Source of the DNA: Granulosicoccus sp.
GTDB lineage: Bacteria; Pseudomonadota; Gammaproteobacteria; Granulosicoccales; Granulosicoccaceae
DNA length: 64,000 nt
Direction of reading: 5' to 3'
Assembly (NCBI GenBank): GCA_023300375.1
Contig: JALZWO010000059.1
Span: forward strand, 1 to 64,000
Both the position numbers and the translations under genes were made by a program. Below, piece after piece: positions 17,405 through 38,916 of this stretch (position 1 is its first letter; each line of letters begins with the position of its first letter). Below the pieces are notes generated by a model. It was given only the letters and a program-made list of their open reading frames with translations. It was not told where the DNA came from and searched no databases.

Positions 17405-17460
17405 CTAAAGCGGTAATTTTTTGGTCTAAAGGTTAAATCAATATTAATGAGACCCTTATT

Positions 17461-18567: not shown

Positions 18568-18636
18568 GGTAGTTATTATTAAGATGGGTGCTCATTCAGA
18601 AAATTTTCGGAAAAATACACTAGATTTTATATAACT

Positions 18637-18741
18637 TATTCGTTAGCAAAACACGGTAAGCGCATTGTTCAGTCAATGAAACGGGTGTCGATAAATGTTT
18701 AGGAAAAAAACAAACTTTGACAAGTTGCCCGCTAACGAATA
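18637..18741. repeat. 11-bp perfect inverted repeat upstream of cheA
   Basis: TATTCGTTAGC (18637-18647) and its exact reverse complement GCTAACGAATA (18731-18741) flank 83 bp in the cheB-cheA gap. It could be a paired operator or the stem of a long leader structure; the arms are too far apart for a terminator and no T-run follows. Confidence 0.65.
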
Positions 18742-18784
18742 CGTGTAAGTAAACGGTCAAAGTGAGACACCGAGAACGTAAAGA

Positions 18785-21550: not shown

Positions 21551-22017
21551 GCCAAACTACATCACAAAAATATTGTACTTTTTACCTTGATAAATACTAC
21601 TTTGGTATTGAGGTTGAACAGGTACAAGAAATCATTAGATTTCAGGAAATAACTCCAGTTGCGTTGGCACCAAAAGTTGTAAAAGGGTTGATTAATTTGC
21701 GTGGACAAATAGTGACGGCTGTAGATTTACGGTGTTTGCTAGAGCTACCAGATCGTGAAGAGGGTAAGGTCCCTATGAATATTGTCGTTAGAACCCCATT
21801 AGGTGCATTCAGTTTACTGGCTGATCGAATTGGTGACGTGCTGGGGCTCGCTGATGACAGCTTTGAGTCACCACCTGACAATCTCTCTGGCATGGCTGGT
21901 GAGTTGATTGAACGTGCCTATAAGCTTGACGGGAAACTATTGCTGACAATGGCTATTAGCAAACTTGTCAGCGCAGAAGTCTTGAATCGTACAGAAGTTG
22001 CTGCAGAAGCGGCATGA
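21547..22017 (+). CDS. cheW: CheW chemotaxis coupling protein
   Basis: The 156-residue adaptor links receptors to CheA. It reads YCTFYLDKYYFGIEVEQVQEII and VKGLINLRGQIVTAVDLRCLLEL, the standard CheW beta-barrel motifs. It starts at a GTG that overlaps the cheA stop, so it is translationally coupled and likely made in fixed ratio to CheA. The MCP gene follows after about 40 bp. Confidence 0.93.
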   Translation: MSQTTSQKYCTFYLDKYYFGIEVEQVQEIIRFQEITPVALAPKVVKGLINLRGQIVTAVDLRCLLELPDREEGKVPMNIVVRTPLGAFSLLADRIGDVLGLADDSFESPPDNLSGMAGELIERAYKLDGKLLLTMAISKLVSAEVLNRTEVAAEAA

Positions 22018-22058
22018 AAAACTTAGTGTCTGGCAGCTGGACAAAGGGAATTCATTAA

Positions 22059-24860
22059 ATGTTATCTCTAGGGATACGATCCAAGTTACTAGTAGCTTTT
22101 GGTTGTGTGATGGCAACAACCCTTGTGGCCAGTGCTATCGCATTTATTTCGTATGCCCGAGTAGGGGACTCGCTAGAAAACATCACTCAAAAGAGCGTTC
22201 CTCTTATGGTTGAATCCATGGAGTTATCGCAGCTTTCTGCAGAGTTTGGCGCCAGAATTCCATTGTTGGCACGTGCTACGACTATTGCTGAGGCTGAAAA
22301 TCAGCACCAGCTAATCATTGGATCCTTGAGAAAATCCTCTCGTATTATTGAATCAAAAATTGCGAACGGCATTAACTTGTCTGATTCAAAGCAAATTCAG
22401 CTTGATCTGGCTGAGCGAGAGAATAATGTAGAAAAATTATATTTCCTGACCAGAAATATGATTTCTGACACAAGCAAAGTTCAGGTGGCTGCAATAAATG
22501 CAGATGAGCAGCTGTTGGCAATTGATAAAAACTTGCTAACCATCGTTGATAAAACAACATCGAGATTTATGAAGTCAGCAAAACGTATTGCACAGCAAAG
22601 TGGTGCGGGAGTTGACATCGTACTTAATCAGTATATTGACTCAATGGTAGCAACTGTCAAATTAGAGGCTGAGGTTAGGCAGCTTGTGGAACATATAAGA
22701 ATACTACTTTCTGCAAACAGCGAAGTCGAAATTAGAGACGGTAAATTAGCAATCCCAGCGATGCTTAAAACTATTACTGAACTTGACTCAAGGGTAGATA
22801 AAACGAGAATTGAAAACAAGACTGAATACTACGATTTACTCATAAATTTGCGTAGTCTAGCCGAGGGCAAATCAGGTATTCAGAGTGTGGCCCCGGCAGG
22901 TAGAAAAACTCAGGAAGTACTTAATCTATCAACGGAATTAGATCAGATCCGGAACATCGCAGAAAGAATTCTTTTGCCCATTGTTGATGATATTTATGCT
23001 GATGCCCTTCGTATCGGCTCGACTCTTCACAATCGTGTCAATACAGAAATGCCACAATTAATGAGCTCCGGGGTTGACAACTTGGTGGCTTCTCTACAGC
23101 TTCGGGTTGAGTTGAATACCATTGCAGGTGTTGTTGCCCAAGTGCCCAATGTGGTTGATGTACAAGGCATTGAATTTTTAAAAGCAAGACATCTGAAAGC
23201 TGCTGAGGCTATTGCTACGGATAGGCCTTTGTTGGAACAAATTAGAGGTATGTCAGCAATATTCGATGACATCGATGTCGTTCTACAGCAATTTGATTCA
23301 GCTGAAAGCGTTGCCGTATTACGCATAAGGACGATTGCAACTGCCGGTGTGATCTCTAAAATGGTAGAAACTATTCTTGCTGAACAGACAGATGCAGTTA
23401 TTCGACTGGTTGGCAATGTGCGTGCAAGCCAAGCTGATGTAGATGATGCTGGCAATGCAGTTAACCGTTTAATCGTATCTAGCCAAATACAGCTTGTGTT
23501 AGTGGCATTTGTAAGCATGCTGATAACGGCTCTCGTGTATTGGCTTGTGGTTTCGCGAACCATTTTGCAGCGCTTAATTCGTATTATTGATGCGCTACGA
23601 GCTTTGGCTGAGGGAAACTACGACGTTAACGTTGATGGTCGTGGTGTCGATGAGCTCTCAAGTCTAGCGCGTACCGTGGAGGTCTTTAAGCACAATGGAC
23701 TAGAGGCATCGCGACTTCAGGAAGAACAAGTGACATTAGAAAAAGCCAAGAAGGCTCAGAAAGAACTTCAACTACAAGCTGAACGTCGTGAGCAAGCTGA
23801 TAGAGATCAACGACATTCAGATGAACGTGTGTTGGCCAAAAAACAACAAGAATCCGCAAATGAATTACAGCGCCGGGTAGATGAGCTTTTGGTGGCAGTT
23901 AGCGCTGCTGCCAATGGAAATTTAGAGCATCCTATAGATACAAGAGGTGAGGATGTTGCAGCTCAAATGGGTAGCGCACTAAATCAGCTTTTTACAGAGC
24001 TGCGTAGAAGTATGTCTGATATAGATGTAAATGCAACGCAGCTCGCAAGTGCCTCTAAAAGCCTGAATGCTTTGTCAGTCGATATGAACGAGACAGTGAG
24101 TTCGAATACACAGAGTGCTCGTGAAGCCACTCATATCACGAAAGAAGTGGGAGCAGGTGTGGACAGTGTGGCTGGTGCCACTGAGCAAATGAGCTCTTCA
24201 ATTAAAAAAATTGCCCAGAATGCGACGGTTGCAGAATCTGTTGCAAACGAAGCGGTGATAATCGCTAAGGATACAGATGCTACCGTTCGAAAGTTGGCAG
24301 AAAGTAGTGCTGGAATAGGAACAGTAATAAAGGATATTACCTCGATTGCTGAGCAAACTAATCTTCTAGCACTGAATGCCACTATCGAGGCGGCTAGAGC
24401 AGGAGATGCAGGAAAGGGTTTTGCGGTGGTAGCCAATGAGGTCAAAGAGCTGGCGAAAGAGACAGCAAAGGCTACTGAAAAAATTGAATCAAGAATCAGT
24501 GATATTCAAAGCGACACAGATTCAGCAGTAAACGCTATAGGTTCGATAGGGAATATCATCGAAAAAATTAGCACTATCCAATCAACCATTGCAATAGCAG
24601 TTGATGAACAAGCGACCGTTACGCAGGAAATTAGTCGTTCGATAATTAAAACTGCCGATGGCACCGAGGCCATAGCATCGGTGATTCAAGTCGTCGCAGA
24701 GAAGGCTTTGGTTAATCAACAAGCCTCAGATGACATTGGTGCGGCTGCAGCAGATCTTTCTGATACGGCTGGGCGGCTTCAACAATTAGTGAAACGCTTT
24801 ACAGCGTCAAAGCTAGAGGAACAAGATTCCTCTGATAACGCTTTGAGCAAGGTAGCTTAA
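22059..24860 (+). CDS. Methyl-accepting chemotaxis protein with large periplasmic sensor
   Basis: The 933-residue receptor has a first membrane helix at about residues 8-30, an unusually long helical periplasmic region of around 440 residues, a second membrane helix ([19 protein letters not shown]), a HAMP domain, a coiled coil rich in Glu, Gln and Arg, a second HAMP-like unit ([20 protein letters not shown]), and the signalling hairpin. The tip [31 protein letters not shown] is canonical. No C-terminal CheR-tethering pentapeptide is present. The sensor part has no recognised fold beyond helical bundles. It is co-directional with cheW and cheY and is probably the cognate receptor of this pathway. 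Confidence 0.93.
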
Positions 24861-24953
24861 GTACATACATATGAGCAGGAAATAATTGAATCTGTTGTCA
24901 GCGTAACCGGTAATACCGTTACTTTGTTATTAGACTAATTAGAGAAGTTCGTT

Positions 24954-25340
24954 ATGTCATTACCACAAGCTCATGCACTAATTATTGATGATTCGCGCGT
25001 AATGCGAGCGATCTTGAGACGTATTCTTACTAACACAGGTTTCAAGATATCAGAAGCTGTCAACGGCCTGGAAGGTCTAGAGCGCCTGACACTGAATGAC
25101 GATATTTCAATATGCTTGGTTGATTGGAATATGCCAGAGATGAATGGTTATGAATTTGTTAAGGCGGTTCGTAGCGATAAAAGTAACAAACATATCTGGC
25201 TAATGATGGTAACCACAGAAACAGAAATGTCGCGCGTAGTAAAAGCCATGGCTGCTGGTGCGAATGAGTATGTCATGAAGCCTTTTACTGATGATGTCAT
25301 CGTTGATAAGTTACGTTTACTTGGTTTAGTTGCGGCTTGA
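24954..25340 (+). CDS. cheY: CheY-type response regulator
   Basis: The 128-residue receiver has the acidic pair in LIIDDSRVMRAILRR, phospho-Asp in CLVDWNMPEMNGYEF, switch Thr in MMVTTETE and Lys in YVMKPFTDD. This is close to CheY. It should carry the signal from CheA to the motor or other output. It follows the MCP after 93 bp, which contain a weak imperfect hairpin (GTAACCGGTA/TACCGTTAC). The next gene, cheB, starts directly after its stop. Confidence 0.9.
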   Translation: MSLPQAHALIIDDSRVMRAILRRILTNTGFKISEAVNGLEGLERLTLNDDISICLVDWNMPEMNGYEFVKAVRSDKSNKHIWLMMVTTETEMSRVVKAMAAGANEYVMKPFTDDVIVDKLRLLGLVAA

Positions 25341-25341
25341 C

Positions 25342-26499
25342 ATGAAAAACAAGCGCGTGCTAGTTGTTGATGATTCCTATTTATATCAACAATTGTTTTC
25401 TAATGCTATTGACGCTGCGGATGGACTAGAGGTAGTCGGTATTGCCGCCAATGGAAAAATTGCATTAGAAAAAATACATCAATTAGTACCCGATCTTGTA
25501 CTGTTGGATATCTTAATGCCAGAAATGGATGGCATACAGACACTGATGGCGATCCGTAAAGACTGGCCATCGGTACGTGCCATTATGGTTAGCTCGCTAA
25601 CCTCCGAGGGGTCAGAGGCCGCATTGGATGCTTTGGCATTAGGTGCGTGTGAATACGCTAACAAACCTGATACAGCCAATGGTATTGAGAGCATTAAGTC
25701 CGAGTTGAAAATTGATCTTGTGCCCAAGGTATTAGCATTGTGTGGTGTTGAGGATTCTGCATTTAACAGGCTAAAAACTGTTGCTAGAAATAAGGGTCAG
25801 CAATTGGATTTGCTGCGGCAGAACACATCGTCTGCTTGCGGCCAGGGCGGCAATATTGATATCGTGGCTATCGGTATATCAACAGGCGGTCCTGATGCAC
25901 TGTCAAAAATACTGTCGAATTTACCGGCCGATATTGGTGTTCCTATTGTAATCGTGCAGCACATGCCGCCTCAATTCACTAGCAAACTGGCCAAGCGATT
26001 GAATTCGGTTAGTGCACTGGAAGTCGTGGAAGCCACGGCAAACGACAAGCTTCTAGCAGGAAAGGTTTTTATTGCACCCGGTGATTACCATATGGTTTTG
26101 ACCCAATCGGATGATGATGTCGTGATTGAATTGAACCAAGAGGCACTTGAGAATTCATGTCGTCCATCTGTTGATCCACTATTTCGATCGATTCCAAAAA
26201 TATATGGAAAAAAGTGTCTAGGAGTGATTTTGACAGGTATGGGTGGAGATGGTCTGTTCGGTTGTGAGGTATTGGTCAAGGCTGGGTGTCCGGTTATTGT
26301 CCAAGATAAAGAGACGTCGATTGTTTGGGGAATGCCCAAGTTGGTTTTAGAAGCTGGTCTTGCACAGCGGGTAGTACCAATAGAGCATATGGCAAATGAA
26401 ATTGTTCATTGGGTGGGTCGTCAACCGATAGTTGGGAGCCCATTTGATCAAACGCCTCCTCTTCGTTATCCCATAGGTAAGCCAGGGAGAGTCGCATGA
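25342..26499 (+). CDS. cheB: CheB protein-glutamate methylesterase (second copy)
   Basis: This second CheB has 385 residues with receiver (VLVVDDSYLYQQL; phospho-Asp in LVLLDILMPEMDGI) and methylesterase domains. The catalytic triad is intact: Ser in AIGISTGGPDAL, His in IVQHMPPQF and Asp in LTGMGGDGLFG. The ORF track begins at a TTG inside cheY; the ATG at 25342 just past the cheY stop is preferred. It overlaps cheR by four bases (ATGA). With cheR it forms the adaptation pair of the cluster, which makes the role of the first CheB an open question. Confidence 0.92.
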   Translation: MKNKRVLVVDDSYLYQQLFSNAIDAADGLEVVGIAANGKIALEKIHQLVPDLVLLDILMPEMDGIQTLMAIRKDWPSVRAIMVSSLTSEGSEAALDALALGACEYANKPDTANGIESIKSELKIDLVPKVLALCGVEDSAFNRLKTVARNKGQQLDLLRQNTSSACGQGGNIDIVAIGISTGGPDALSKILSNLPADIGVPIVIVQHMPPQFTSKLAKRLNSVSALEVVEATANDKLLAGKVFIAPGDYHMVLTQSDDDVVIELNQEALENSCRPSVDPLFRSIPKIYGKKCLGVILTGMGGDGLFGCEVLVKAGCPVIVQDKETSIVWGMPKLVLEAGLAQRVVPIEHMANEIVHWVGRQPIVGSPFDQTPPLRYPIGKPGRVA

Positions 26500-27311
26500 G
26501 TGAGATATCCGCTTCGGATTTTGATTTTGTTTGCTCGCTGGTTTATAAGTCATCAGCTATCGCCATCGATACTGATATGAAGTACTTGGTAGAGTCGCGT
26601 CTTACGTCTCTTTTGCGTAAAACTGATTTTGCTGATATACCCGCCTTGTTACTGGGATTACGCACAACCGCTAATCCAGAGCTAGCTGAGAGCGTGGTAG
26701 ACGCTATGACCACAAACGAGACATCGTTTTTTCGTGATTCGCATCCGTTTACTATGCTATGCGAGGATGTACTTCCAGACATTGCACGATCGCATTCGGA
26801 TACCATTACTATTTGGTGTGCCGCGTGTTCAACTGGTCAAGAGCCATACACCATAGCAATGTCAATTCTTGAAAATTGTCCGCAAATAGCGTCGCGTGTT
26901 CGAATCAAGGCAACGGATATTTCCAAAGAGGTCGTTACCAAAGCTGAGACTGGGCGATACAGTCGCCTAGAAGTTAACCGCGGCCTACCGGTGCAACACC
27001 TACCTAAGTACTTTGTACGGCAGGGGCTTCATTGGGACGTCAATAGTACGTTGCGCAATATGGTGAGCTTTAAACAATTGAATTTATTTGGCAACTGGGA
27101 TGATTTGCCCATGATGGACATCATATTTCTGCGTAATGTCTTAATCTATTTTGCTCCAGAGGATAAAGCCAAGGTTTTACAAAGTACTGCAAAAATACTA
27201 AAACCTGATGGCTGTCTTTTTCTTGGACTGTCAGAGACAACACTTAATTTGAATACTGACTACAAACGAGTTACGACAGATCACAGTCATTATTACAAAA
27301 TCACCGAGTAA
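26496..27311 (+). CDS. cheR: CheR chemoreceptor methyltransferase
   Basis: This S-adenosylmethionine-dependent enzyme methylates glutamates on chemoreceptors. The 271-residue protein has the N-terminal helical domain with TTNETSFFRDSHPF, then the SAM fold with IWCAACSTGQEPYTIAM, IKATDISKEVV and IFLRNVLIYF. It is coupled by a 4-bp overlap to cheB. With no CheR-tethering pentapeptide on the neighbouring MCP, it probably acts without tethering. Confidence 0.94.
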   Translation: MSEISASDFDFVCSLVYKSSAIAIDTDMKYLVESRLTSLLRKTDFADIPALLLGLRTTANPELAESVVDAMTTNETSFFRDSHPFTMLCEDVLPDIARSHSDTITIWCAACSTGQEPYTIAMSILENCPQIASRVRIKATDISKEVVTKAETGRYSRLEVNRGLPVQHLPKYFVRQGLHWDVNSTLRNMVSFKQLNLFGNWDDLPMMDIIFLRNVLIYFAPEDKAKVLQSTAKILKPDGCLFLGLSETTLNLNTDYKRVTTDHSHYYKITE

Positions 27312-27323
27312 GAGACTCACCTT

Positions 27324-27773
27324 ATGAGCATCATTAGCGAAGAAGACATACAGGAAATTGTTGAGACAGTCTGGATGACAGTGCTTGATCTACCCATACA
27401 AGTTAGCCGAGATTATGATTTATCAACGGATAACTGTCTGGGCGCCGAGATCAAAATCAGTGGTGCTTGGAATGGAGTTGTTGCTGTTAGGGCAAGCAGG
27501 GTATTCCTAGTCTATGCTGCGTCGTTGATGTTCAGCTGCGCGCAGAGCGATGTCAATGATAGTGATTGTGCAGATACCTTGACTGAGCTGACGAATATGT
27601 TGGGTGGTACGGTTAAATGTTTGCTCCCAGAAATTTGTGATTTATCTTTACCCACTATAGGAATTGATACGCTAAATACCAACGATGCGAGCTGGGTAGG
27701 ATTTGATTGCGCAGATAGCCTTGTAGCCGTGTGTGTTTCAGTGATGTCAGATGATCACGAAATAGCGGCATAA
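27324..27773 (+). CDS. CheX-like CheY phosphatase domain protein
   Basis: The 149-residue protein matches the CheX/CheC/FliY type: a short N-terminal helix, a beta-strand pair (EIKISGAWNGVVAVRASRVF) and the helix DTLTELTNMLGGTVKCLLPE, whose E-x-x-N and G-G spacing is the phosphatase motif that attacks phospho-CheY. It lies 12 bp after cheR and should terminate signalling, taking the place of CheZ, which is not in the window. The remaining C-terminal part is weakly conserved. Confidence 0.78.
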   Translation: MSIISEEDIQEIVETVWMTVLDLPIQVSRDYDLSTDNCLGAEIKISGAWNGVVAVRASRVFLVYAASLMFSCAQSDVNDSDCADTLTELTNMLGGTVKCLLPEICDLSLPTIGIDTLNTNDASWVGFDCADSLVAVCVSVMSDDHEIAA

Positions 27774-27941
27774 AGTCGTTATCGATACTGCTAGTTTTGG
27801 TTGATAAAATTCAAATAGAAAGACTGTAGCCCAAACACAACAGCTCTAAATACTCTAAACTTAAAGAGTCAGCACAGGCAATTTTTATTCTTGCTCGGCG
27901 CTGGCTGTTGACTTTACGTTTAGCATTTGTTGGAGAGCATT

Positions 27942-28832
27942 ATGGTTCAGAATGTCAAGAAGACACAATCTATTACTGGCAGCCACGTATTATTGGCTGT
28001 AATGAGTACGATATTGGTGGCGTGCGGGGGAAGCAGTGGAACCGAGACTGGTATTGGTACTGGCGTCGGTAGTGAGGGATTCCTTATCTTTGATTTTGAT
28101 AACGATGGTATCGAAGACTCTGCTGATTCGGATGCTGACGGCGATGGTCTTGAAGATTCAAACAGTAATGATCTTTTCATAGACCTAGATAACGATGGTC
28201 GTGACGACTTTTCCTTTAATAATCTAGGTGAGGCCTATTCTGGGGTCACAGGTGCAGAAGGTCTTGCCTCCGTCACTGAGTTCAATGTTTGCGGAAGTGT
28301 TCCGGGTACCGATGCTTTTTCTAGCACATCAGATTGGGCTGACAACTGCTTCGTAGAGCGGAGTATCAATGCGGGAGGTATATTCGCAGACAGCCTGTAT
28401 GCGGTGGGTATTCAGCGCATACTATTTTGTTCAGGATTTGGTGGGACTGCAGGGCAGTCCTATGACGATTTTGCTGATGGAGAATATGGACCCCTATCAG
28501 AAGCTGCGCTCAGGGATTTTCAAGCAAGCACGCCTAATGCACTGACTGATGATGGCATTGTTGGCAGAGACACTTGGGCAAAGCTACAGGATGTTTTGTT
28601 GAATACTGCAACAGTGCAAAGGTTCACGATGTCTATTTCAGGCGGTAATTCACGAGATGAATACAGCTTCAGGTCTGGCCCTTGTGCTGGCATCGCTCTG
28701 TTTTATCAAGACATTGTCGCTGATGGCGATTTTGAAGTTGTAGGCGGTTGGCGGTTGGCCAAAAACATACCTAACGAATTTGAGGCCGTAGCGTTCTCTA
28801 TAGAACCCCCATTCTCAGGACGTCTTGACTAG
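27942..28832 (+). CDS. Lipoprotein with Ca-binding-like acidic repeats and peptidoglycan-binding domain
   Basis: The protein of 296 residues starts with a lipoprotein signal (lipobox LVACGG). Next come acidic repeats of the DNDGIEDSADSDADGDGLED kind, similar to thrombospondin type 3 calcium-binding units. The C-terminal half includes YGPLSEAALRDFQASTP...GIVGRDTWAKLQDVL, a peptidoglycan-binding (PG_binding_1) fold. It is probably an outer-membrane lipoprotein gripping the cell wall. The ATG at 27942 follows GGAGAG; the ORF track start at 27927 is a TTG. It may be unrelated to the chemosensory operon upstream, which is separated by about 170 bp. Confidence 0.75.
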   Translation: MVQNVKKTQSITGSHVLLAVMSTILVACGGSSGTETGIGTGVGSEGFLIFDFDNDGIEDSADSDADGDGLEDSNSNDLFIDLDNDGRDDFSFNNLGEAYSGVTGAEGLASVTEFNVCGSVPGTDAFSSTSDWADNCFVERSINAGGIFADSLYAVGIQRILFCSGFGGTAGQSYDDFADGEYGPLSEAALRDFQASTPNALTDDGIVGRDTWAKLQDVLLNTATVQRFTMSISGGNSRDEYSFRSGPCAGIALFYQDIVADGDFEVVGGWRLAKNIPNEFEAVAFSIEPPFSGRLD

Positions 28833-28937: not shown

Positions 28938-29948
28938 ATGAAAACCGTTTTGGTTGTTGGTGCAGCCGTTGCTTTCGTCATAGTATTGACAATCAGATTC
29001 TTTAATAGTCCTGATCTTACCGTTGTCGATTTGGACCCAGCATTATCGGGGTCTACGTCAAATCCGCTTCCCACTGAACCCTCCCCCTTCGACATTGTGG
29101 AGCAGGACTCTGTCGACAGCCTTGTTTTACGAAGAACTCCCACGCATCCGGCCAACGATGCCGTTAATGTCAATAAAGCAACCACTAACGATCTGCCAGT
29201 TAACACGGTTGTTGATTGGCAGCTGATACGTAGCGAAGATGAGCTTCTAGAACTAATTGACTCAATTAATGCAAATCCAGCTCTAAAACAACTTCTGATG
29301 GACACTTACCGTCAGGAGCTTGATCCCAAGCGTCGAGAAAAGCTGTCCTCCATTCTAGGTCTGGTTGGTGGAGAGCAAGTAACCTTATTGGCCAGTGAAT
29401 TGATTTTTTCTGGCGATGCAACTCAACGCGTGGAGGGAATGGATTTATTGCAAGCTGTGCAACCTGGTAACCCCATGGCTCGTGAGATAGTTTCGGGTAT
29501 GTTAGCTACCGAGGTTAATTCTGATGTCCTGATTGATGCGCTCACGGCCTTGGCAAAGCCTGGGCCCGTTGACGATCAAAGTCGTGCATGGCTCTCCGAA
29601 CAAGTGTCATTGTTGGCAAATCATGATGATGAAAGCGTACGTGGAATAAGCCTTGGCATATTGTCTCGCTGGGCTGATGGCGGTGCACACACTGATATTT
29701 TCGTGTCAGCTTTGGATGATACTTCGCAGCATGTACGCACAGCGGCGGTATACGCACTGCATGATCACGTGGAAAATCCAGCATTAGTGGTAGAGCGGTT
29801 GTTTAGCGTGCTAGAAAATACAGACGAACATCTACGCGTTAGAAGCGCAGCTCTACTATCACTTAAATCACAACAATTAACACCTGTGCAGTGGGATCAG
29901 CTGGAGCGCCTAGAACTCGAATTAAACACACGACCAAGACGACAGTAG
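28938..29948 (+). CDS. Membrane-anchored HEAT-repeat protein
   Basis: The 336-residue protein has one N-terminal hydrophobic anchor (VLVVGAAVAFVIVLTIRFF), then a Pro/Ser/Thr-rich linker, then alpha-helical repeats from about residue 110 to the end. The repeats read SVRGISLGILSRWADGG and HVRTAAVYALHDHVENPALV, which is the HEAT/PBS-lyase-like pattern. It probably scaffolds other proteins in the periplasm. No Shine-Dalgarno is evident and the start lies just past a stable hairpin. It is immediately upstream of the GAF-HlyD / M50 pair on the same strand, so a shared role in that machine is possible but not shown. Confidence 0.7.
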   Translation: MKTVLVVGAAVAFVIVLTIRFFNSPDLTVVDLDPALSGSTSNPLPTEPSPFDIVEQDSVDSLVLRRTPTHPANDAVNVNKATTNDLPVNTVVDWQLIRSEDELLELIDSINANPALKQLLMDTYRQELDPKRREKLSSILGLVGGEQVTLLASELIFSGDATQRVEGMDLLQAVQPGNPMAREIVSGMLATEVNSDVLIDALTALAKPGPVDDQSRAWLSEQVSLLANHDDESVRGISLGILSRWADGGAHTDIFVSALDDTSQHVRTAAVYALHDHVENPALVVERLFSVLENTDEHLRVRSAALLSLKSQQLTPVQWDQLERLELELNTRPRRQ

Positions 29949-30061: not shown

Positions 30062-31912
30062 ATGCCTTCCGCCGTTTTTGAAACTCATCCACCAGCTAAC
30101 GAAAGCTCAGTGATACCTAAGGCACTCGAACAGAGTCAAACGGGTGTTGTAGATGGGTGTTATTCTTGGTTGCAGTGGATACAAAAGCTACTGTGTGCTG
30201 ATTCTCTTGTACTCTACCGCTGTAATACGCGTTTGGGTAAAGTTGCGCTGCGTAAATTAGGCGCCTTGCCGGCCGAAAAATCACTCAATCAGGTTCTGCA
30301 GCATCTAGCTCAGCGTAGCGCTGAGTCTGCTACGTTGGCGAAATTAGATATTGCTGGCGATGGCGTCAGCTCGGCCATTGCGATTCCTGATGTTGTTGGA
30401 AAAAAAGATAGCCCAGTACAGTATGTATTGGTCATCCAACGTGATATTGGCTCATCGTTGGATCTGCAAACACAGGTAAAACTGGTGGTTTGGGCGTTTT
30501 CTGTTTTCGATAAATTCAACCTCTCTACACAATCTTCAGGTTCACCGCGAAAGCTCGTTCAATGGCTTGTTGAGCGCTTGGCTGATACCAGTTCTGGCTG
30601 TGTCTATGCTGACCTTGTTAAAGAGGTCGCAAGACGTACAAACTCAGATAGCTGCTTGCTCGCTAAGCTTGAAATAACATCAGGTAGTGTTAGTCGGGCT
30701 TCATTAATTGCTGTGTCCGGACAGCCGCGCATAGATACTCGTCTTGCGGCGTCGCGTGCACTTGTGACAAATTTTGAAACCGCCTATCTGGGTAAAAATT
30801 TACCGTTAGTCGCGCTAAATCAAGCCTGCGTTGAGCGTACCCTGACGAAACAAACAGCAGTCACTAAGGCGCTTGAGCAGTGCGCGCGTTTAAGCTTACC
30901 GGTTTGTGTAGACCAAACTTGGTTTGTGGTTGCGCTTGAACGAGCTATCACGCAACCGTTTTGTGCCACCCAGAGCAAGAAACTACATGATGAAATCGCA
31001 GCTGCAATGCAGATATCTGAAATGGTGCAGGCGGGCAAGCTAGGGGTAAGAGCAGCGCTTGGGCGACGAGGTCGGCAGTGGTTTGCCTCCGTTGGTTCCA
31101 CGCGTGTACGCAAAGTGTGCGTGATAACGACGTTCTTGTTTTTCTTGTGGTTGTTTTTCTTCCCAATGGAGCACCGAATAAGTGCTCCATTGAATGTTGA
31201 GGCTTCTGAGCGACATGTTCTCATTGCACCCATTGACGGTGTTGTGGAGTCGATCGAAGTTAAGGCTGGAGATCAAGTGATTAAAGGGCAAACGCTTGCC
31301 TCTCTTGACGATCATGAATTGTTGGTGCAGCAGCAGAAGCTACAAAGTGAATCCCTCCAGAATGAACAGTCTTTTGCAAAGGCATTAGCAGGTCATGATC
31401 GAGTAGAGGTAACTCGGCTTAAAGAGCAATCATCGCAAATTAATGCTGAGCTTATGCAAATCGCATTGCAGCGCAGTAAGATGGTTTTGGTTGCTCCCAC
31501 GGATGCCGTGGTGCTCAGTGCCACTCTAGATGATTACTTAGGCGCCACTATATCCGCTGGCGAGACCCTATTTTCGCTGGGCTCTATCGATTCGCATCGC
31601 TTGGTTTTAAACGTATCTGAATACGATGTGCAAGACGTTCGGATTGGACAGAAAGTAGGCCTGAGGTTATCGGCAAATCCCTCACGCGTGCTGGCGGCAG
31701 AGGTTGTAGCAATCATGCCGCTGGTGGTCGCTAGCGCTGGTGCCAATACTGTTCAGGTACACGCAAAAATAGTGGAAGACGTGTCATTGAGGCCCGGTAT
31801 GCAAGGTCTTGGAAAAATACTGGTAGGTCGTCAAGCCTTAGGAGTTCAGTGGGTAAAAAGAGCGGGCTCTCGCCTGTTTTGGCTCGGCTGGAAGCTGGGA
31901 TTGTTGCGATGA
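30062..31912 (+). CDS. GAF-domain HlyD-type periplasmic adaptor
   Basis: The protein of about 616 residues is a fusion. The N-terminal half is cytoplasmic and contains a GAF-like fold (about 165-330, with ELVKEVARRTNSDS-type start and SLIAVSGQPRID). A single membrane helix follows at about 351-368 (ITTFLFFLWLFFFPM). The periplasmic part starts with a biotinyl-lipoyl hairpin (APIDGVVESIEVKAGDQVIKG), then a coiled coil and the HlyD/RND adaptor barrel. It overlaps the M50 gene by four bases. The start is uncertain: GTG at 30038 or ATG at 30062. No substrate is known; a GAF sensor fused to an export adaptor suggests ligand-gated or redox-gated assembly, which is inference. Confidence 0.78.
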   Translation: MPSAVFETHPPANESSVIPKALEQSQTGVVDGCYSWLQWIQKLLCADSLVLYRCNTRLGKVALRKLGALPAEKSLNQVLQHLAQRSAESATLAKLDIAGDGVSSAIAIPDVVGKKDSPVQYVLVIQRDIGSSLDLQTQVKLVVWAFSVFDKFNLSTQSSGSPRKLVQWLVERLADTSSGCVYADLVKEVARRTNSDSCLLAKLEITSGSVSRASLIAVSGQPRIDTRLAASRALVTNFETAYLGKNLPLVALNQACVERTLTKQTAVTKALEQCARLSLPVCVDQTWFVVALERAITQPFCATQSKKLHDEIAAAMQISEMVQAGKLGVRAALGRRGRQWFASVGSTRVRKVCVITTFLFFLWLFFFPMEHRISAPLNVEASERHVLIAPIDGVVESIEVKAGDQVIKGQTLASLDDHELLVQQQKLQSESLQNEQSFAKALAGHDRVEVTRLKEQSSQINAELMQIALQRSKMVLVAPTDAVVLSATLDDYLGATISAGETLFSLGSIDSHRLVLNVSEYDVQDVRIGQKVGLRLSANPSRVLAAEVVAIMPLVVASAGANTVQVHAKIVEDVSLRPGMQGLGKILVGRQALGVQWVKRAGSRLFWLGWKLGLLR

Positions 31913-34011
31913 ATGAACTGCATGTTAAACGAGCACTAGAAGGTTTCCCAGTGTTAAGCCAGCACTGCACAGTGACGCCTACCGTCGTGCGTAGTGAGCA
32001 CTGGCTGATTATCAAAAATACTATTAATGCTTGCCATGTACGGCTGCAAAGAGATTTGTGGCCGGCTTTACGTCAGTTAGATGGAAGTATACAACTACAA
32101 CAGTGGCTCCTTGAACATACGCCAGAGTTTGGCGATCAACGTCTGTTGGGTGCCGTAATGCAGTTGCAACGACAAGGCGTACTGAGTTCTGATGTGGAGT
32201 TATCTGACGGTGGGTCCTTAATGAGCCGCTTGTTTGCACAGAAGAACCCGTTAATGATTCGCTGCCCTTTGTTTAATCCTACACGTCTATTAGAATTTTG
32301 TTGTTTTGTATCCATTGCAATGTCAGGCAAGCTTATCCGTTGGCTATTTTTTAGTACTGTCTGCTTAAGCCTCTATCTGTTGTTCATGCATTGGTCAGCT
32401 GTTGCTCAGCAATTCACAGGTGCCACTGTCACAACTTATGTGTGGCATTTCTTTTTGCTTTATCCAATGTCCAAAGCGCTGCACGAGCTTGCGCATGGTT
32501 GGGCGTTGCAGCAATACGGCGGACAGGTCCCAGAGGCCGGTGTTTCGTTTGTCGTCTTATTTCCACTGCCGTATGTGGATGCTACGGATGCATGGACGTT
32601 AACACGTGAGCAGAGAATGCTTGTGACGGGGGCCGGGATGCTGATGGATTTATTTGTTGCAAGTATTGCCCTAATTCTATGGAGTGTACTGTCAGCTGGC
32701 GTTTTGGCTAATATGGCTTTTAGTGTAATACTAATGAGTGTGGCATCGATTCTGGTTTTCAATGCGAACCCCCTTTTGAAATTTGACGGGTATTACTTAC
32801 TTGAAGATGTGTTGGATAGTCCTGGGTTGGCGCGACGTGCAACTCTGTTCTATCAGTATTTATTCAAGAGATACATTCTCAAGATTCATGAAAGTGTTAA
32901 GCCTTTAGTGGCAAAGGGTGAGAAACCCTATATGTTGATCTACGGGTTTTTGAGTCCGTGTTATCGAGTGATGATTTCACTATTGATCTGTCTTTATTTA
33001 GTCAGTACATTCCATGAGCTTGGTGTTGTATTGTCGGCCTTCTCTCTCATACCACTTTTTGGTTTTCCAATTTTTCGTTCGTATAATTATTTTCGTAATT
33101 CTCGAGACCTAACGGAGCAACGGCTACGGGCTGTGAGTGTAACTGTCAGTATCCTGATTGCTGTAGTCGCTGTGTTGTTGCTATTACCGATGCCATCTAC
33201 AACACGCACTCAAGGTGTTGTATGGGTGGATGAGCAGGCTGAAATTTATGCGGCGCAGTCTGGCGAGCTGGAACAAATTCTAGTGGCAAACGGCGATATG
33301 GTAAAAAAAGGCCAGCCGATAATGGTCCTTAGCGATTTCTCACTGGATATGAACCTCAGCCGTAAGCAGGCGGCTGTGAGGTTGGCGAAACTAGATATTG
33401 AGCGATATCGCCAGAGTGATCCAAGCCTTGCAGTAACTGCACGTATCGAGTTATCTCAAGCTGATGTAGAGGTCGACTACGCTCAGCGTCAGATTGAGAA
33501 ATTGATTGTGAGATCTCCCAAGGATGGGCGTGTTGCCTTTAACGATGATTATAAAAATTCTGGGCAATATGTTTCACAGGGAGTGCTTTTGGCTTACGTT
33601 GTGAATGCCAGAACAAGGCTGATCCGAGCCGTGGTTGATCAGTCAGCGCTAGGCAGAGTTTCTGGTGATGTGGGTAATGTTTATGTCAGATTGGCGTCGG
33701 CTATGTCTCACAATTTCCAGGCCTCACTTGTACGACAGGTGCCTGCTGGCACAAATGAGTTGCCCAGTGCGGCATTAATTGACACAGGTTTTGGAGGATT
33801 TGATGTTGAGCAAATTGACGTTGAACAAGGTCCTCGAACACGTGAGAAAGTATTTCATCTTGAGTTGGCTATTCATGGTGATGAGAGCACTCCGATGAAC
33901 GTGCCTGTAGGTACTAGGGCTTTTGTTACGTTTCAACATGCCAATGAGCCGCTTGGGCCACGTTGGTTTCGTTTGGGACGACAACTGTTGCTGAAGCACC
34001 TAAATGTATGA
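31909..34011 (+). CDS. M50 site-2-type membrane metalloprotease fused to HlyD adaptor, PqqD-like N-terminus
   Basis: The 700-residue protein (ATG overlapping the previous stop; a GTG 20 codons upstream is possible) has three parts. The N-terminal cytoplasmic region ends in a PqqD-like RQLDGSIQLQQWLLEH segment. A multi-helix membrane core carries the zinc motif HELAH (about 192-196) and the third ligand in NANPLLKFDGYYLLED (about Asp293), as in M50 proteases. After the last helices a biotinyl-lipoyl HlyD domain follows (IYAAQSGELEQILVANGDMVKKG). Relatives are found with adaptor proteins in bacteriocin and peptide-export loci, but their function is not established. It is coupled to the GAF-HlyD gene and probably forms a complex with it. 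Confidence 0.8.
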   Translation: MNELHVKRALEGFPVLSQHCTVTPTVVRSEHWLIIKNTINACHVRLQRDLWPALRQLDGSIQLQQWLLEHTPEFGDQRLLGAVMQLQRQGVLSSDVELSDGGSLMSRLFAQKNPLMIRCPLFNPTRLLEFCCFVSIAMSGKLIRWLFFSTVCLSLYLLFMHWSAVAQQFTGATVTTYVWHFFLLYPMSKALHELAHGWALQQYGGQVPEAGVSFVVLFPLPYVDATDAWTLTREQRMLVTGAGMLMDLFVASIALILWSVLSAGVLANMAFSVILMSVASILVFNANPLLKFDGYYLLEDVLDSPGLARRATLFYQYLFKRYILKIHESVKPLVAKGEKPYMLIYGFLSPCYRVMISLLICLYLVSTFHELGVVLSAFSLIPLFGFPIFRSYNYFRNSRDLTEQRLRAVSVTVSILIAVVAVLLLLPMPSTTRTQGVVWVDEQAEIYAAQSGELEQILVANGDMVKKGQPIMVLSDFSLDMNLSRKQAAVRLAKLDIERYRQSDPSLAVTARIELSQADVEVDYAQRQIEKLIVRSPKDGRVAFNDDYKNSGQYVSQGVLLAYVVNARTRLIRAVVDQSALGRVSGDVGNVYVRLASAMSHNFQASLVRQVPAGTNELPSAALIDTGFGGFDVEQIDVEQGPRTREKVFHLELAIHGDESTPMNVPVGTRAFVTFQHANEPLGPRWFRLGRQLLLKHLNV

Positions 34012-34120
34012 TTACGATGATATGCAAATTAATTTGTAATCCAGTTCAGCCAGTTCAATATTGCGCTGCTATTCAGGCAATGAGCCTTGACCATGATTTT
34101 TGCACATGGGGAGCACATCC

Positions 34121-37100
34121 ATGAGTTTATCTTCGGCTCCAGTATCGGTCGATGTTTGGGCAAAGGCTACGGTTAATTTAAGGGACAGATTGGCGCGCTT
34201 GTGGCCGTTTCCACGTATGAGTGCTCGATTACATATCGTAGTTGGTCTCACATCATTGGTAGGCAGTAGTACGTTGTTAGCACTGTTTTTAGGTTTGATA
34301 CCGGACAGGCAACTTCAAGAGCTGCAATCCAGAATAACACTTGCAGAGTCAATAACAATTTTAAGCTCTGCGCTACTAAAAAATGGTGATCTTGCAGACT
34401 TACGTTTCTCGTTAGAATTTATCATCGAGCAAAACCCATCGATACATGCAGTGCGACTTGAACGTCGCTCAGGTGGTGAATACCAGTTCCTATCCGACAC
34501 TGCATCTTTAAATGATCCATCGGCGGCCCCTGTGCTGACTCAGGATATAAAAGTGCCAATTGTGCAGCGTAACCGCAACTGGGGAGAGCTAGTGGTGGAA
34601 TACGTATCAGAAGATAACAACCCGAATTATCAGCAATTGCTTAGCACACGTTGGGCGATTATCGGCTTCATGTCATTTGTCTGTTTTCCATTATTCTATG
34701 TTTTTTTGGGCAAAGTTCTTAAGGAGCTCAATCCCGCTTCAGCGGTGCCCTCAAGGGTGCGCTCGGCGCTAGATACTATTGCAGAAGCACTTTTGGTGCT
34801 TGATAAGCAAGGTAATATTGTCCTGGCAAACTTGGCATTTATTGAATTAACAGGCCAGTCCATGGAGCAATTGATAGGTCAACCTGCAGTGCAATTGCCG
34901 TGGGAAAAATCAGAGTCGTATGTCTGGGAAGAGGCTTTGAACGGGGCCGAGTCCACTCGTCACGAGAAGGTACGTTTTACTGATCTCGAAGGTCAGCAAC
35001 GCTCATTTATTGTGAACTGTTCGCCTGTCGTTACTGCCAAAGATGAGGTTGGTGGCGTTTTAGTTAGCATGGATGACATTACCCAGCTAGAAAAGCAGGA
35101 GGTACAGCTGCGTGAATCTATGCAGTTGGCCGAAGAGGCGAATAGTGCAAAAAGCAGCTTCTTGTCGAATATGAGTCATGAAATTCGTACGCCGATGACT
35201 GCGATATTAGGCTTCACCGAAGTGATGCGGCGAAATTCCAGACAAACAGAAGGCGAGCGACAAGAGTACCTCAATACCATTGCCAAGAGTGGTCAACATC
35301 TGTTGGAACTCATCAATGATGTACTGGATTTGTCCAAAGTTGAGTCTGGAGCAATGGAAGTCGAAGAGCTGCCTTGTCAGTGTGCAGAAATTGCCAGCGA
35401 TGTAATACGTGTTATGCAGGCAAAGGCCGATGAAAAAAGCATTGGCTTACATCTGGAAATTGCAACGCAACTGCCTGATGCAATAAACGCAGATCCGTCC
35501 AGATTACGCCAGGTCATCACAAATCTTGTTGGCAACGCCATAAAATTCACTGATAACGGCGATGTTGTTGTGAGGTTGTCTGCCAACGAATCGAATGCTC
35601 AGCATGAAGCGAATGTCATTATAGAAGTTGCTGATAGCGGTATCGGTATGAGCGAAGAGCAGCAACTAAAAATATTCGATGCTTTCGCACAAGCCGACAC
35701 GTCCATTGCCAGGCGTTTTGGTGGTACCGGCCTTGGTCTTTCTATTAGTCGTCAACTGACTGAAGCCATGCAAGGGCAATTGAGCGTGAGTAGTGAGCCG
35801 AATGTAGGCAGTACGTTTCGCATATCGCTGCCGTTTAACAACGAAAAATATGAGCTTGTTACACCTGAAGCCTTATTCGCGTTACTCGCTGAAGGTGAGC
35901 AGAAACTTAATGTTGTCTGGGACATCAACCCCTCACGTATTTTAGTGGTTGATGATGGCCCAGAGAATAGACAACTGCTCAGTATTGTTCTTGGTGATAT
36001 GGGATTGAGTGTCGATCTAGCAAACAACGGCCAAGAAGGTGTGGATGCACTTTTCAATGCTACAGATGAGCAGGCCTACGACGCAGTACTTATGGATATT
36101 CAGATGCCAGTGATGGATGGATATACCGCGGCTTCAACTATGCGTGAGCGAGGTGCCACTTTGCCTGTGGTCGCACTCACAGCGAATGCTATGAAGGGGT
36201 TCGAAGAGAAAGTGCTTGCCTCGGGCTTTTCGCACTATATGCCAAAACCCATTGACATCGACAAGCTGGGTGCTCTTTTAGCTAAGCTGCTTGGCGGTGT
36301 TGAACGTCAAGAGCCCCAAGTAGTGGCAGCTAAAGCACCGCGCGAACAAACATCGCAGGATAAAATCGATCAAACTCACACTTTGATTAGTGATTTGGCA
36401 CGATCAGACAGTCGCTTTATTCCAATAGTTGAGGATTTTCGTACTCGGCTTGCGCAGCGATCTAAAGAGCTGCGGGCAATGATTGAATCCGAGGATTGGC
36501 AGTCAATTCATGATTTTGGTCATTGGCTCAAAGGTTCTGCCTCTAGCGTTGGTCTCAATGCATTAGCTGAGCCTGGTGTTGATCTCGAAATGGCTGCTGA
36601 TGCGCAAGACAATGAAGCCTGTCGTCAGATACTTTCTGTTATTGACCGTCTGCAGCAATTAATTATTTCAGATCCTTCGGAGAGTCTGTTGGATGCTGGT
36701 GTTCAGGCTGTAGCGGTTTCCTCTGAGGAGCATTCTGGCGCCTCAAATGTGAGTGCCATCGATGAAAATGAGCCAGTTTTTTCAGACTTACCTGTCGAAT
36801 TACCCGAATTTTATGAAGTGGTTAGCCTATTCATTGATAAATTAGATCAACAGATGCGATCTTTACGTACAGCGGTCGCTAACAAGGATACGAAGGTTAT
36901 TTTAGATATCGCTCATTGGTTGCGTGGTTCTGGCGGCAATGTGGGTTACTTGGAGTATTTGACCTTATGTGACCAGATAGAGGTCAGTGCGCAACAATCC
37001 CTGCCTACTTTGAGTGAAGACTTAGCGACTTTGGAAAAATTTAATCAACGAGTGCTAGCGGGTTGGCAGGGGACGCTAAGGCCTGCAAATCGTGGTGTGG

Positions 37101-37123
37101 CAAATAATAAGCCCGTCAAATGA
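34121..37123 (+). CDS. Hybrid sensor histidine kinase with receiver and two Hpt domains (BarA-like)
   Basis: The 1000-residue inner-membrane kinase has, in order, membrane helix 1 (about 37-61), a periplasmic sensor of about 120 residues, membrane helix 2 (about 182-204), a PAS domain, HisKA (FLSNMSHEIRTPMTAILGF), HATPase (NLVGNAIKF, DSGIGM, GGTGLGLSI), a receiver (ILVVDDGPENR; VLMDIQMPVMDGY), and two Hpt domains (FGHWLKGSASSVG and IAHWLRGSGGNVG). GGGGAG seven bases before the ATG at 34121 selects this start over the TTG and ATG upstream. Phosphorelay should end on an external receiver; the next gene, which overlaps by four bases, supplies one. Confidence 0.92.
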   Translation: MSLSSAPVSVDVWAKATVNLRDRLARLWPFPRMSARLHIVVGLTSLVGSSTLLALFLGLIPDRQLQELQSRITLAESITILSSALLKNGDLADLRFSLEFIIEQNPSIHAVRLERRSGGEYQFLSDTASLNDPSAAPVLTQDIKVPIVQRNRNWGELVVEYVSEDNNPNYQQLLSTRWAIIGFMSFVCFPLFYVFLGKVLKELNPASAVPSRVRSALDTIAEALLVLDKQGNIVLANLAFIELTGQSMEQLIGQPAVQLPWEKSESYVWEEALNGAESTRHEKVRFTDLEGQQRSFIVNCSPVVTAKDEVGGVLVSMDDITQLEKQEVQLRESMQLAEEANSAKSSFLSNMSHEIRTPMTAILGFTEVMRRNSRQTEGERQEYLNTIAKSGQHLLELINDVLDLSKVESGAMEVEELPCQCAEIASDVIRVMQAKADEKSIGLHLEIATQLPDAINADPSRLRQVITNLVGNAIKFTDNGDVVVRLSANESNAQHEANVIIEVADSGIGMSEEQQLKIFDAFAQADTSIARRFGGTGLGLSISRQLTEAMQGQLSVSSEPNVGSTFRISLPFNNEKYELVTPEALFALLAEGEQKLNVVWDINPSRILVVDDGPENRQLLSIVLGDMGLSVDLANNGQEGVDALFNATDEQAYDAVLMDIQMPVMDGYTAASTMRERGATLPVVALTANAMKGFEEKVLASGFSHYMPKPIDIDKLGALLAKLLGGVERQEPQVVAAKAPREQTSQDKIDQTHTLISDLARSDSRFIPIVEDFRTRLAQRSKELRAMIESEDWQSIHDFGHWLKGSASSVGLNALAEPGVDLEMAADAQDNEACRQILSVIDRLQQLIISDPSESLLDAGVQAVAVSSEEHSGASNVSAIDENEPVFSDLPVELPEFYEVVSLFIDKLDQQMRSLRTAVANKDTKVILDIAHWLRGSGGNVGYLEYLTLCDQIEVSAQQSLPTLSEDLATLEKFNQRVLAGWQGTLRPANRGVANNKPVK

Positions 37124-38916
37124 ACTCTGTTATTACGGACGCCACTGATCAAGCTTTGGAGCTTGATGATGAGATGTTGTGCTTAATGCGCAGCGCCAAG
37201 ATTATGATGGTTGATGACGAACCGATTAACATGCGTGTGTTGCAGCTTCATCTTAATGTTGAGGGGTACGAGCGATTCGTTTCGGTTAGTGATTCCACAA
37301 TAGCAATGAGCGTACTGCGTGCTGAGAAACCAAATGTTTTATTGCTGGACCTAAATATGCCTGAGGTCTCAGGGTTAGAGATTCTCGAGCAAATTCGTGC
37401 GGACGAAGAGCTCAAGCGCTTACCGGTTATTGTATTGACATCATCCAACAGCGAAGATATCAAGTTCAAAGCGTTGCAATGTGGTGCAAACGATTTTCTA
37501 CCCAAACCTGTACACGCCAGTGAGTTAGCTTTGCGCATGCGCAATACCTTAGTGGCAAGATCGTACGAACAAAGAATCATGCATGTAGATTCTCTGACAG
37601 ACCTACCTAATCGTTTAGCACTGGCGGACTATATAGAGCAACATGTAGCCAATAACGAGCTAGGTGCTGACTCTCATGCTCTGGTGCTAATCAACATTCA
37701 TCGTTTCAAGACCATTAACGATAGTTATGGCTCTGCTCGTGGCGACGACGTGTTGTGGGCATTCAGCCAGCGCTTGCGTCTAGCATTTGTGGAAGCTGCG
37801 GCTGAGGAGCATGGTTCAGGTGATTCTGTGTTGGTTGTGCGTTTAGGTGGAGATCGCTTTGGTGTGTTTGCCAATTTGTTAGAGAATCCCTCTGCTCAAT
37901 CAGTATTACAGGGACAACTGACTCAGTTGTTAAAGTCTCTTGAGCAGCCCTTTGCCGTTGAATCTAGTGATGTCTACATTAATGTAGGCATCGGCGCTTC
38001 ATATTTTAATACGACAACAAAGACCGTTGAGGCTTTAATCAGTCACGCTGAGACGGCGATGAGAAATCACGATCAGAATTCAGGCTATCCCTGTACCTTT
38101 TTTAGTGCTGAGATGACTGATGGTGCTCGACGCTTACTTGATATTGAAAATGGTCTTAGAACTGCCATTGAAGATAACGCTTTGTACCTGACCTACCAGC
38201 CAAAAGTTGACGTGCAAACTGGGTTGATAACTGGCGCTGAAGCGCTGTTGCGTTGGCGAGATGCAAAGTTAGGCGAGTTGTCGCCGGTAGAATTTATTCC
38301 TGTGGCAGAAGCGACCAATATGATTGTGCCCATCGGGCTATGGGTTCTTGAGCAGGCTTGTCATCAAGCTGCCAATTTGCGGCGTACTGTGGCACCTCAT
38401 TTTAAAATTGCAGTGAATGTATCTGTAGCGCAGTTGGCTGAACCGCATTTCACTGACTTTGTGCTAGCTGCCTTAAAGAGTAGCGGGTTACCAAGTCGTG
38501 CACTCACGCTTGAGCTCACTGAGAATATGATCATGGACGATGTGGAAGCCAGCATTGCTAAGTTGGCAGCTCTACGTGAGCTTGGCATATCAATATCCAT
38601 TGACGATTTCGGCACTGGATATTCCTCGCTGAGCTATTTGCATCGATTCAGCGTTGATCAATTGAAAATTGATCGCTCCTTTATCATGCAAATTGAATCT
38701 CTCGAGGTGGGCTCTCCCATTGTTAAGGCTGTGGTTATGCTAGCTAACGACTTGGGTCTTTCCATTGTCGCAGAAGGCGTAGAAACCGAAATTCAGCTCG
38801 CCTACATTCAAACTCTGCCCCGCATGGAGTATCAAGGCTACTACATGAGTCGCCCATTGATAGCTACAGAGTTCGAAAAGCTAGTGATAGTAAACATGCA
38901 GAAACTCGCCGCTTGA
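37120..38916 (+). CDS. Response regulator with GGDEF-like and EAL domains (c-di-GMP turnover)
   Basis: The 598-residue protein has a receiver (MMVDDEPINMRVLQ; phospho-Asp in VLLLDLNMPEVSG), a GGDEF-type domain and an EAL domain. The GGDEF active site reads GGDRF, so cyclase activity is probably lost. The EAL domain looks intact: GAEALLRW, the ENMIMDD metal-site segment, SIDDFGTGYSSLSYLHRF, KIDRSFI and AEGVETE. It is therefore most likely a c-di-GMP phosphodiesterase controlled by the upstream hybrid kinase, to which it is translationally coupled. Confidence 0.9.
   Translation: MNSVITDATDQALELDDEMLCLMRSAKIMMVDDEPINMRVLQLHLNVEGYERFVSVSDSTIAMSVLRAEKPNVLLLDLNMPEVSGLEILEQIRADEELKRLPVIVLTSSNSEDIKFKALQCGANDFLPKPVHASELALRMRNTLVARSYEQRIMHVDSLTDLPNRLALADYIEQHVANNELGADSHALVLINIHRFKTINDSYGSARGDDVLWAFSQRLRLAFVEAAAEEHGSGDSVLVVRLGGDRFGVFANLLENPSAQSVLQGQLTQLLKSLEQPFAVESSDVYINVGIGASYFNTTTKTVEALISHAETAMRNHDQNSGYPCTFFSAEMTDGARRLLDIENGLRTAIEDNALYLTYQPKVDVQTGLITGAEALLRWRDAKLGELSPVEFIPVAEATNMIVPIGLWVLEQACHQAANLRRTVAPHFKIAVNVSVAQLAEPHFTDFVLAALKSSGLPSRALTLELTENMIMDDVEASIAKLAALRELGISISIDDFGTGYSSLSYLHRFSVDQLKIDRSFIMQIESLEVGSPIVKAVVMLANDLGLSIVAEGVETEIQLAYIQTLPRMEYQGYYMSRPLIATEFEKLVIVNMQKLAA

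Follow-up and report, generated by a model that had tools for sequence, protein, structure and literature searches.

A coupled HlyD adaptor and M50 protease-HlyD fusion in Granulosicoccus, and their association with giant LEPR-XLL surface proteins

Within a 64,000-nucleotide stretch of the genome of a Granulosicoccus sp. (contig JALZWO010000059.1 of assembly GCA_023300375.1, positions 1 to 64,000; hereafter 'the window') lie two overlapping genes, the first encoding a HlyD-type membrane fusion protein with cytoplasmic GAF domains (MFP1), and the second a zinc protease of the M50 family fused to a further HlyD adaptor domain. Comparison of this pair with its relatives indicated that it probably forms the inner-membrane and periplasmic core of an apparatus, free of any ATP-binding cassette (ABC) exporter, that handles giant LEPR-XLL surface proteins, most of them encoded at other places in the genome, by exporting, trimming or releasing them. 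The predicted substrate link to those giants, drawn from gene neighbourhoods and co-occurrence, is well supported, and the pair is probably controlled by two-component or cyclic di-GMP (c-di-GMP) signals; envelope sensing may represent a side function.

Giant surface proteins and their C-terminal tail

The giants encoded in operons with such pairs range from 1,500 to 10,900 amino acids (aa) in length; they start with LEPR-XLL (NF012209, over its cut-off), usually continue with DUF4347, and are then built of cadherin-, immunoglobulin- or lectin-type repeats. In the literature searched, LEPR-XLL is mentioned in only two papers, one of which terms it a novel giant protein. The M50 protein is present in 43 of the 48 genomes of the window's order, with up to seven copies per genome, and the pair is also widespread in Proteobacteria and Desulfobacterota. 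A sample of 319 genomes of the same class, taken from outside the order, was divided into 46 M50-positive genomes (best match at E < 1e-60) and 273 M50-negative ones: LEPR-XLL was found in 28 of the former and 4 of the latter, DUF4347 in 32 and 9, and the two together in 22 of the 46 and in 0 of the 273. LEPR-XLL was likewise present in 10 of 10 tested genomes outside the order, in at least eight of which it heads a frame of 7,000-10,900 aa. An earlier interpretation made from the letters of the window (the sequence-only reading) had suggested a unit that processes and exports peptides; 'processes and exports' proved a fair guess, close to what is favoured here for the giants, whereas peptides as the cargo found no support, the linked proteins being giant LEPR-XLL/cadherin surface proteins.

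Many of the giants end in a moderately hydrophobic segment, SxGxSVGYxxWLxRxGxLxxSxLSxxPxWRxxDPLPVL (in which PxW...DP is invariant), followed by a charged end. A pattern written for this tail matched 20 of 2072 open reading frames (ORFs), each time in a giant or a fragment of one and 18-63 residues from its C-terminus; in addition, 13 of 25 complete tails carry a near-terminal (D/E/G/S)E(S/T)LExxV motif (10 recognized by pattern and three by eye), and that pattern matched 0 of 2110 other ORFs. A profile of the tail found no counterpart model in Pfam or NCBIfam, and none of their CTERM signatures was recognized on it.

The distribution of the tail follows that of the protease. Within the order it was found in 44 of 48 genomes, and the four that lack it (G028, G035, G046 and G047) all lack the M50 protein as well; in one genome that is 68% complete (G036), tails were present and the M50 protein was not found. 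In the class sample the tail occurred in 22 genomes, all 22 of them M50-positive, and outside the order 19 of 19 tail-bearing genomes (from 13 families) were M50-positive, as against no tail in any of the 273 M50-negative genomes. This is the relationship seen in rhombosortase- and exosortase-type systems, where a tail family co-occurs with one intramembrane protease, and the pair behaves like a sorting pair of tail and intramembrane protease grafted onto HlyD adaptors.

Several of the giants differ in their ends. Those upstream of the pair at L147, L155, L160, L164, L183 and L192 (7,000-10,900 aa in the cases measured) finish differently, in short motifs of GLIDW or GxxGW type that may be address tails too, and those of L161, L184 and L185, outside the order, have a near-terminal AExMF at about the position where relatives of the window have ESLExxV. 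DUF4347 at L033 (9062-10562) and L078 (5228-10606) contains conserved SHG and YGCD motifs, which we take to resemble the His/Cys dyad of caspase-like proteins; self-processing by this domain is conceivable.

Related loci and the giants of the window genome

A survey of 138 loci, in which ABC exporters were sought by a crude motif (regular-expression) scan, found none in any operon, and thus not the exporter by which a type I secretion system would be recognized; profiles for resistance-nodulation-division (RND) transporters, applied at the window only, gave nothing near its pair. The sequence-only reading had seen no ABC or RND transporter next to the pair, and this was confirmed for positions 24-42 kb of the window; nor was an arrangement seen in which the pair would be the plain adaptor set of an ABC exporter. 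The gene orders fell into four classes: (i) class A, the window type and its relatives, giant-free, with MFP1-M50-(MFP3)-hybrid kinase-(REC-GGDEF-EAL); (ii) class B, MFP1-M50-SecA-like-MFP3-giant, whose giant may be encoded upstream or else downstream, found in Desulfobacterota and among alpha-, beta- and gammaproteobacteria, as well as in a second copy in the window's own genome (L033 on contig C170, whose giant measures 3,414 aa); (iii) class C, MFP1-M50-MFP3-giant, in some cases followed by a kinase (L078, L143, L060); and (iv) class D, TolC-MFP-GAF/HlyD-M50-giant (L040, L104, L108-L112). A metagenome-assembled Nitrospira genome has MFP1-M50-SecA, and L078, with an M50 protein from the sister clade of the window's clade, unites MFP1-M50-MFP3-giant-kinase-GGDEF/EAL in one cluster. 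Most loci have the third adaptor, and many have a giant, a SecA-like ATPase or the combination of hybrid kinase and GGDEF-EAL, so that the proposal of a self-contained system found no support.

The SecA-like ATPase beside the second pair (717 aa, L033 5982-8135) scores below every SecA and SecA2 cut-off and is a dedicated Gram-negative SecA paralogue. Such a dedicated SecA was rejected as a universal part, because five genomes with giants and the pair (G013, G016, G018, G033 and G037) have only SecA of housekeeping length (frames of 920-998 aa). The class D loci form a divergent subfamily that branches deeply in the midpoint-rooted M50 tree, has a TolC of its own and carries giants with a variant leader, LExRIMLD.

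Site-2 (M50) proteases are the classical enzymes of regulated intramembrane proteolysis, and the M50-HlyD protein might accordingly be a protease of that kind that senses the envelope, with the giants as regulated genes rather than substrates. The cytoplasmic GAF domains of MFP1 would suit such a signalling device, as would the hybrid kinase and GGDEF-EAL protein, which accompany the giant-free pairs of the order more constantly than any other neighbour. Most loci outside the order, however, lack the kinase and yet keep the giant, SecA or MFP3; a set of three HlyD adaptors with a SecA-like ATPase suits transport rather than sensing; and the tail never occurs without the M50 protein in the class sample. 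We therefore regard signalling as the principal role as unlikely.

The window pair has no giant alongside, and no LEPR-XLL protein is encoded in its operon. Its genome nevertheless encodes giants on contigs C20 and C170, both of them tail-bearing, and the best reading of the genomic evidence is that the pair would act in trans, its targets including at least the tail-bearing giant of cadherin type that adjoins phaC. An orthologous giant of this kind, identified by tail tree and synteny, adjoins phaC in all seven window-type genomes, and the neighbouring PhaC proteins are 76-95% identical. (Recognition of the C20-type giant by sequence was abandoned as not exclusive, since its C-terminal 466 aa also match paralogous giants, and synteny was used instead.) Tail and M50 sequences of this clade give one branching order, ((G025,(G000,G024)),(G020,(G043,G044,G045))), and the tail tree follows the M50 tree in several other paralogue clades too. 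Among 14 pairs encoded in cis, M50 and tail distances are correlated (Mantel test, r=0.38, p=0.002), and in G020, with two giant-free pairs and two orphan giants, the proposed pairing gave r=0.50 (rank 37 of 720), as compared with -0.20 when swapped. Genomes having only a giant-free pair also contain orphan LEPR-XLL giants, and a single such pair may face several unlinked tails (four in G016, five in G018 and four in G013).

It is improbable that the window pair is instead a degenerating paralogue, catalytically intact and deprived of its cargo, while the complete C170 system does the work. That system does exist, and neither giant nor SecA nor third adaptor stands beside the window pair; but the catalytic residues are invariant, all seven genomes retain the pair together with the kinase, the response regulator and the phaC-linked giant, and several genomes rich in giants have giant-free pairs as their sole M50 system.

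A number of observations weigh against the proposed handling of giants, and against its operation in trans. At window-type loci the third adaptor and SecA are missing; the contig ends within the C20 giant (L213), of which 1813 aa can be read as an ORF, and in its full-length ortholog from the sister species (L214, 2136 aa) the leader is divergent (LDQRLLFSAE) and DUF4347 is absent. The trans pairings were proposed only after the trees had been seen, the mirror signal is modest (within the order alone the cis correlation is not significant, at r=0.32 and p=0.07), and vertical descent explains part of the match between M50 and tail topologies. Outside the order, both LEPR-XLL and DUF4347 are missing from eight of the 46 M50-positive genomes, and one or the other occurs without the M50 protein in 13 genomes. 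Finally, the giants of many M50 lineages have other C-termini, so that the tail is not universal, and its hydropathy is only moderate, leaving a membrane span uncertain.

The two proteins and their surroundings

Both genes are open and conserved, MFP1 from 30038 (GTG) or 30062 (ATG, the start common to the sister species locus L041) to 31912, and the M50-HlyD gene from 31849 or 31909 to 34011; the MFP1 stop codon TGA (31910-31912) overlaps the M50 start codon ATG at 31909 in an ATGA. Structures were predicted with AlphaFold from alignments of 75-77 rows. The MFP1 model, with a predicted local distance difference test score (pLDDT) of 86.5, displays two GAF-like alpha/beta units, a transmembrane (TM) helix and then HlyD; Pfam GAF matches 31 of 75 family members (best 2.2e-08) and not the window MFP1 itself, the assignment thus coming from the family and the model. 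The features of both proteins are collected in Table 1.

The model of the fusion (pLDDT 91.7) consists of a PqqD-like domain, a membrane-embedded M50 core (mostly >90 in the predicted TM part) and HlyD. Its HExxH, NxNP and FDGY residues (H192, E193, H196, N285, N287, P288 and D293) are invariant in 77 homologues, with HExxH and the second motif placed in TM helices, and proteolysis is predicted; the Pfam M50 model PF02163 scores 17.3 bits, under its cut-off of 27.2. PqqD model PF05402 matches 10 of 20 members of the M50 family (best 2.1e-05) and not the window protein alone, such that its support is that of the family; a family profile of the region found PqqD 3g2b (9e-4) and PqqC/D 5sxy (0.018) as its best matches in the PDB, and the modelled fold is small, comprising strands at 20-47 plus helices. 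Leader binding by this domain is putative. HlyD domains were detected by Pfam in both proteins (8.5e-19 in MFP1 and 6.6e-09 in the fusion), and Foldseek placed both adaptor parts with MacA/MexA/AcrA (E 1e-12 to 1e-15), in agreement with a barrel-sandwich and alpha-hairpin adaptor fold; among the matches listed for the M50 model only adaptors appear, outscoring its M50 and PqqD parts. The sequence-only reading had described two translationally coupled genes, one joining a GAF domain to an export adaptor and the other a PqqD-like N-terminus and a HELAH-type M50 protease to a second adaptor, and in each of these respects it was right.

A unit for maturation and export of ribosomally synthesized and post-translationally modified peptides (RiPPs), comparable to daptide and epipeptide M50 proteases, is the least probable explanation of the pair: although the M50 part matches NF041824 daptide_HExxH (E 1.3e-38) and NF058609 LiaK (E 6e-12), and a domain like PqqD or a RiPP recognition element (RRE) is present, the scores fall far below curated cut-offs (133.1 versus 300 bits and 45.7 versus 225 bits, respectively), no ABC exporter lies in the operon at the 138 loci, and the linked ORFs are giants (no systematic search for precursor genes <80 aa having been made).

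The hybrid kinase that follows the pair is a conserved downstream neighbour of giant-free pairs. The HEAT-repeat protein noted upstream in the sequence-only reading is a real gene, though not a conserved partner; it and the PG_binding_1 gene were rejected as essential parts because neither stands upstream of the pair in a sister species (G024). Directly upstream is a chemosensory cluster (16931-27773) with a CheA-like kinase (Hpt and CheW domains), CheW, two CheB-like proteins, a CheR-like protein, CheX and a methyl-accepting protein, parts of which are conserved beside window-type pairs.

Table 1. Features of the gene pair and neighbouring genes in the window
Feature	Position	Strand	Evidence
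MFP1: cytoplasmic GAF-GAF, one TM, periplasmic HlyD/MacA-like adaptor	30062..31912	+	Pfam, AlphaFold, Foldseek, homologues
GAF-like fold, two units (30038 frame, aa 40-165 and aa 171-334)	30155..31039	+	AlphaFold
MFP1 TM helix (aa 356-374)	31103..31159	+	AlphaFold, sequence
MFP1 HlyD/barrel-sandwich adaptor region	31169..31837	+	Pfam HlyD_D23 8.5e-19; Foldseek MacA/EmrA/MexA
M50-HlyD fusion, ATGA-coupled to MFP1	31909..34011	+	Pfam, NCBIfam, homologues, AlphaFold
PqqD/RRE-like N-terminal domain	31942..32202	+	AlphaFold, family Pfam, PDB profile matches
HELAH zinc site	32482..32496	+	HExxH invariant in 77 homologues
Second M50 motif NANPLLKFDGYY	32761..32796	+	N285, N287, P288, D293 invariant in 77 homologues
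HlyD/MexA-like adaptor region of M50 fusion	33187..33954	+	Pfam, AlphaFold, Foldseek
Hybrid histidine kinase: periplasmic sensor, PAS, HisKA, HATPase, REC, 2x Hpt	34100..37123	+	
REC-GGDEF-EAL response regulator	37120..38916	+	Conserved neighbour, 7/7 window-type loci
Lipoprotein, D-x-D-x-D-G repeats and PG_binding_1	27927..28832	+	In 6/7 window-type loci
Membrane-anchored HEAT-repeat protein	28938..29948	+	In 6/7 window-type loci

A possible export route and its relation to known systems

If the pair does handle giants, a route can be sketched in which two or three HlyD adaptors would bridge to a TolC-type pore and make up the path through the periplasm; from the cytoplasmic side the PqqD-like domain would recognize either the LEPR-XLL leader of the giant or its C-terminal peptide; the M50 protease would cleave at the leader or the tail, within the membrane or close to it, and so release or mature the giant; and the GAF domains, with the neighbouring hybrid kinase and GGDEF-EAL protein, would gate the timing by a cytoplasmic or c-di-GMP signal. 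The larger proposal, to which we give somewhat less than an even chance, is that of a new category of envelope-crossing secretion and sorting machine, in which HlyD adaptors, an intramembrane zinc protease and a leader-binding PqqD domain (with a private SecA in one branch) export giant adhesins without an ABC protein, the new C-terminal tail serves as the address label, and the window type is the general form that works in trans.

LEPR-XLL giants, which here reach 10,900 aa, occur widely among marine bacteria, and their passage across the envelope is undescribed in the literature that was searched. The association reported here offers them a candidate apparatus and a candidate address tail, as well as a genome in which enzyme and substrate are separable; if true, it would extend the principle of tail and intramembrane protease to zinc proteases. 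No description of M50 and HlyD with DUF4347 or PqqD, of SecA and HlyD with giant adhesins, or of a peptide zinc metalloprotease with HlyD was found in that literature, nor one of a sorting pair of tail and intramembrane protease on HlyD adaptors, most subscription papers lying outside the search.

Several known systems share parts with this one. The M50 core resembles those of YydH/LiaK and the daptide proteases, and the NF041824 match includes the N-terminal PqqD-like part, while the sub-threshold scores, the C-terminal HlyD domain and the giants in place of peptides set the present family apart. Accessory Sec (SecA2) likewise employs a dedicated SecA-like ATPase, as at the SecA-type loci here (NF006630, 449 bits; TIGR03714, 388 bits), whereas the latter falls short of every cut-off, belongs to Gram-negative bacteria, is coupled to adaptors and M50, and is absent from the window type. 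The LapA/LapD/LapG system (PMC6890996) also has a giant adhesin, a protease and c-di-GMP enzymes in one regulatory neighbourhood, its protease being the periplasmic cysteine protease LapG rather than a metalloprotease with an adaptor domain; LapG and LapD were not seen in the neighbourhoods of the pair, though no genome-wide profile search was made. Type I secretion and tripartite efflux (PMC8277102) share the HlyD/MacA/MexA-like adaptors and, at the class D loci, an adjacent TolC, but in the surveyed operons the ABC energizer is replaced by the M50 protease and often a SecA-like ATPase. Lastly, GlyGly-CTERM/rhombosortase and MYXO-CTERM/myxosortase (PMC3237569, PMC6219818, PMC11980579) likewise place a C-terminal tail on many scattered surface proteins and have one co-occurring intramembrane protease; here, that protease is a zinc M50 enzyme fused to an adaptor rather than a rhomboid or myxosortase, the tail has a PxWxxxDPLPVL motif and a charged end, and the giants also bear a LEPR-XLL leader.

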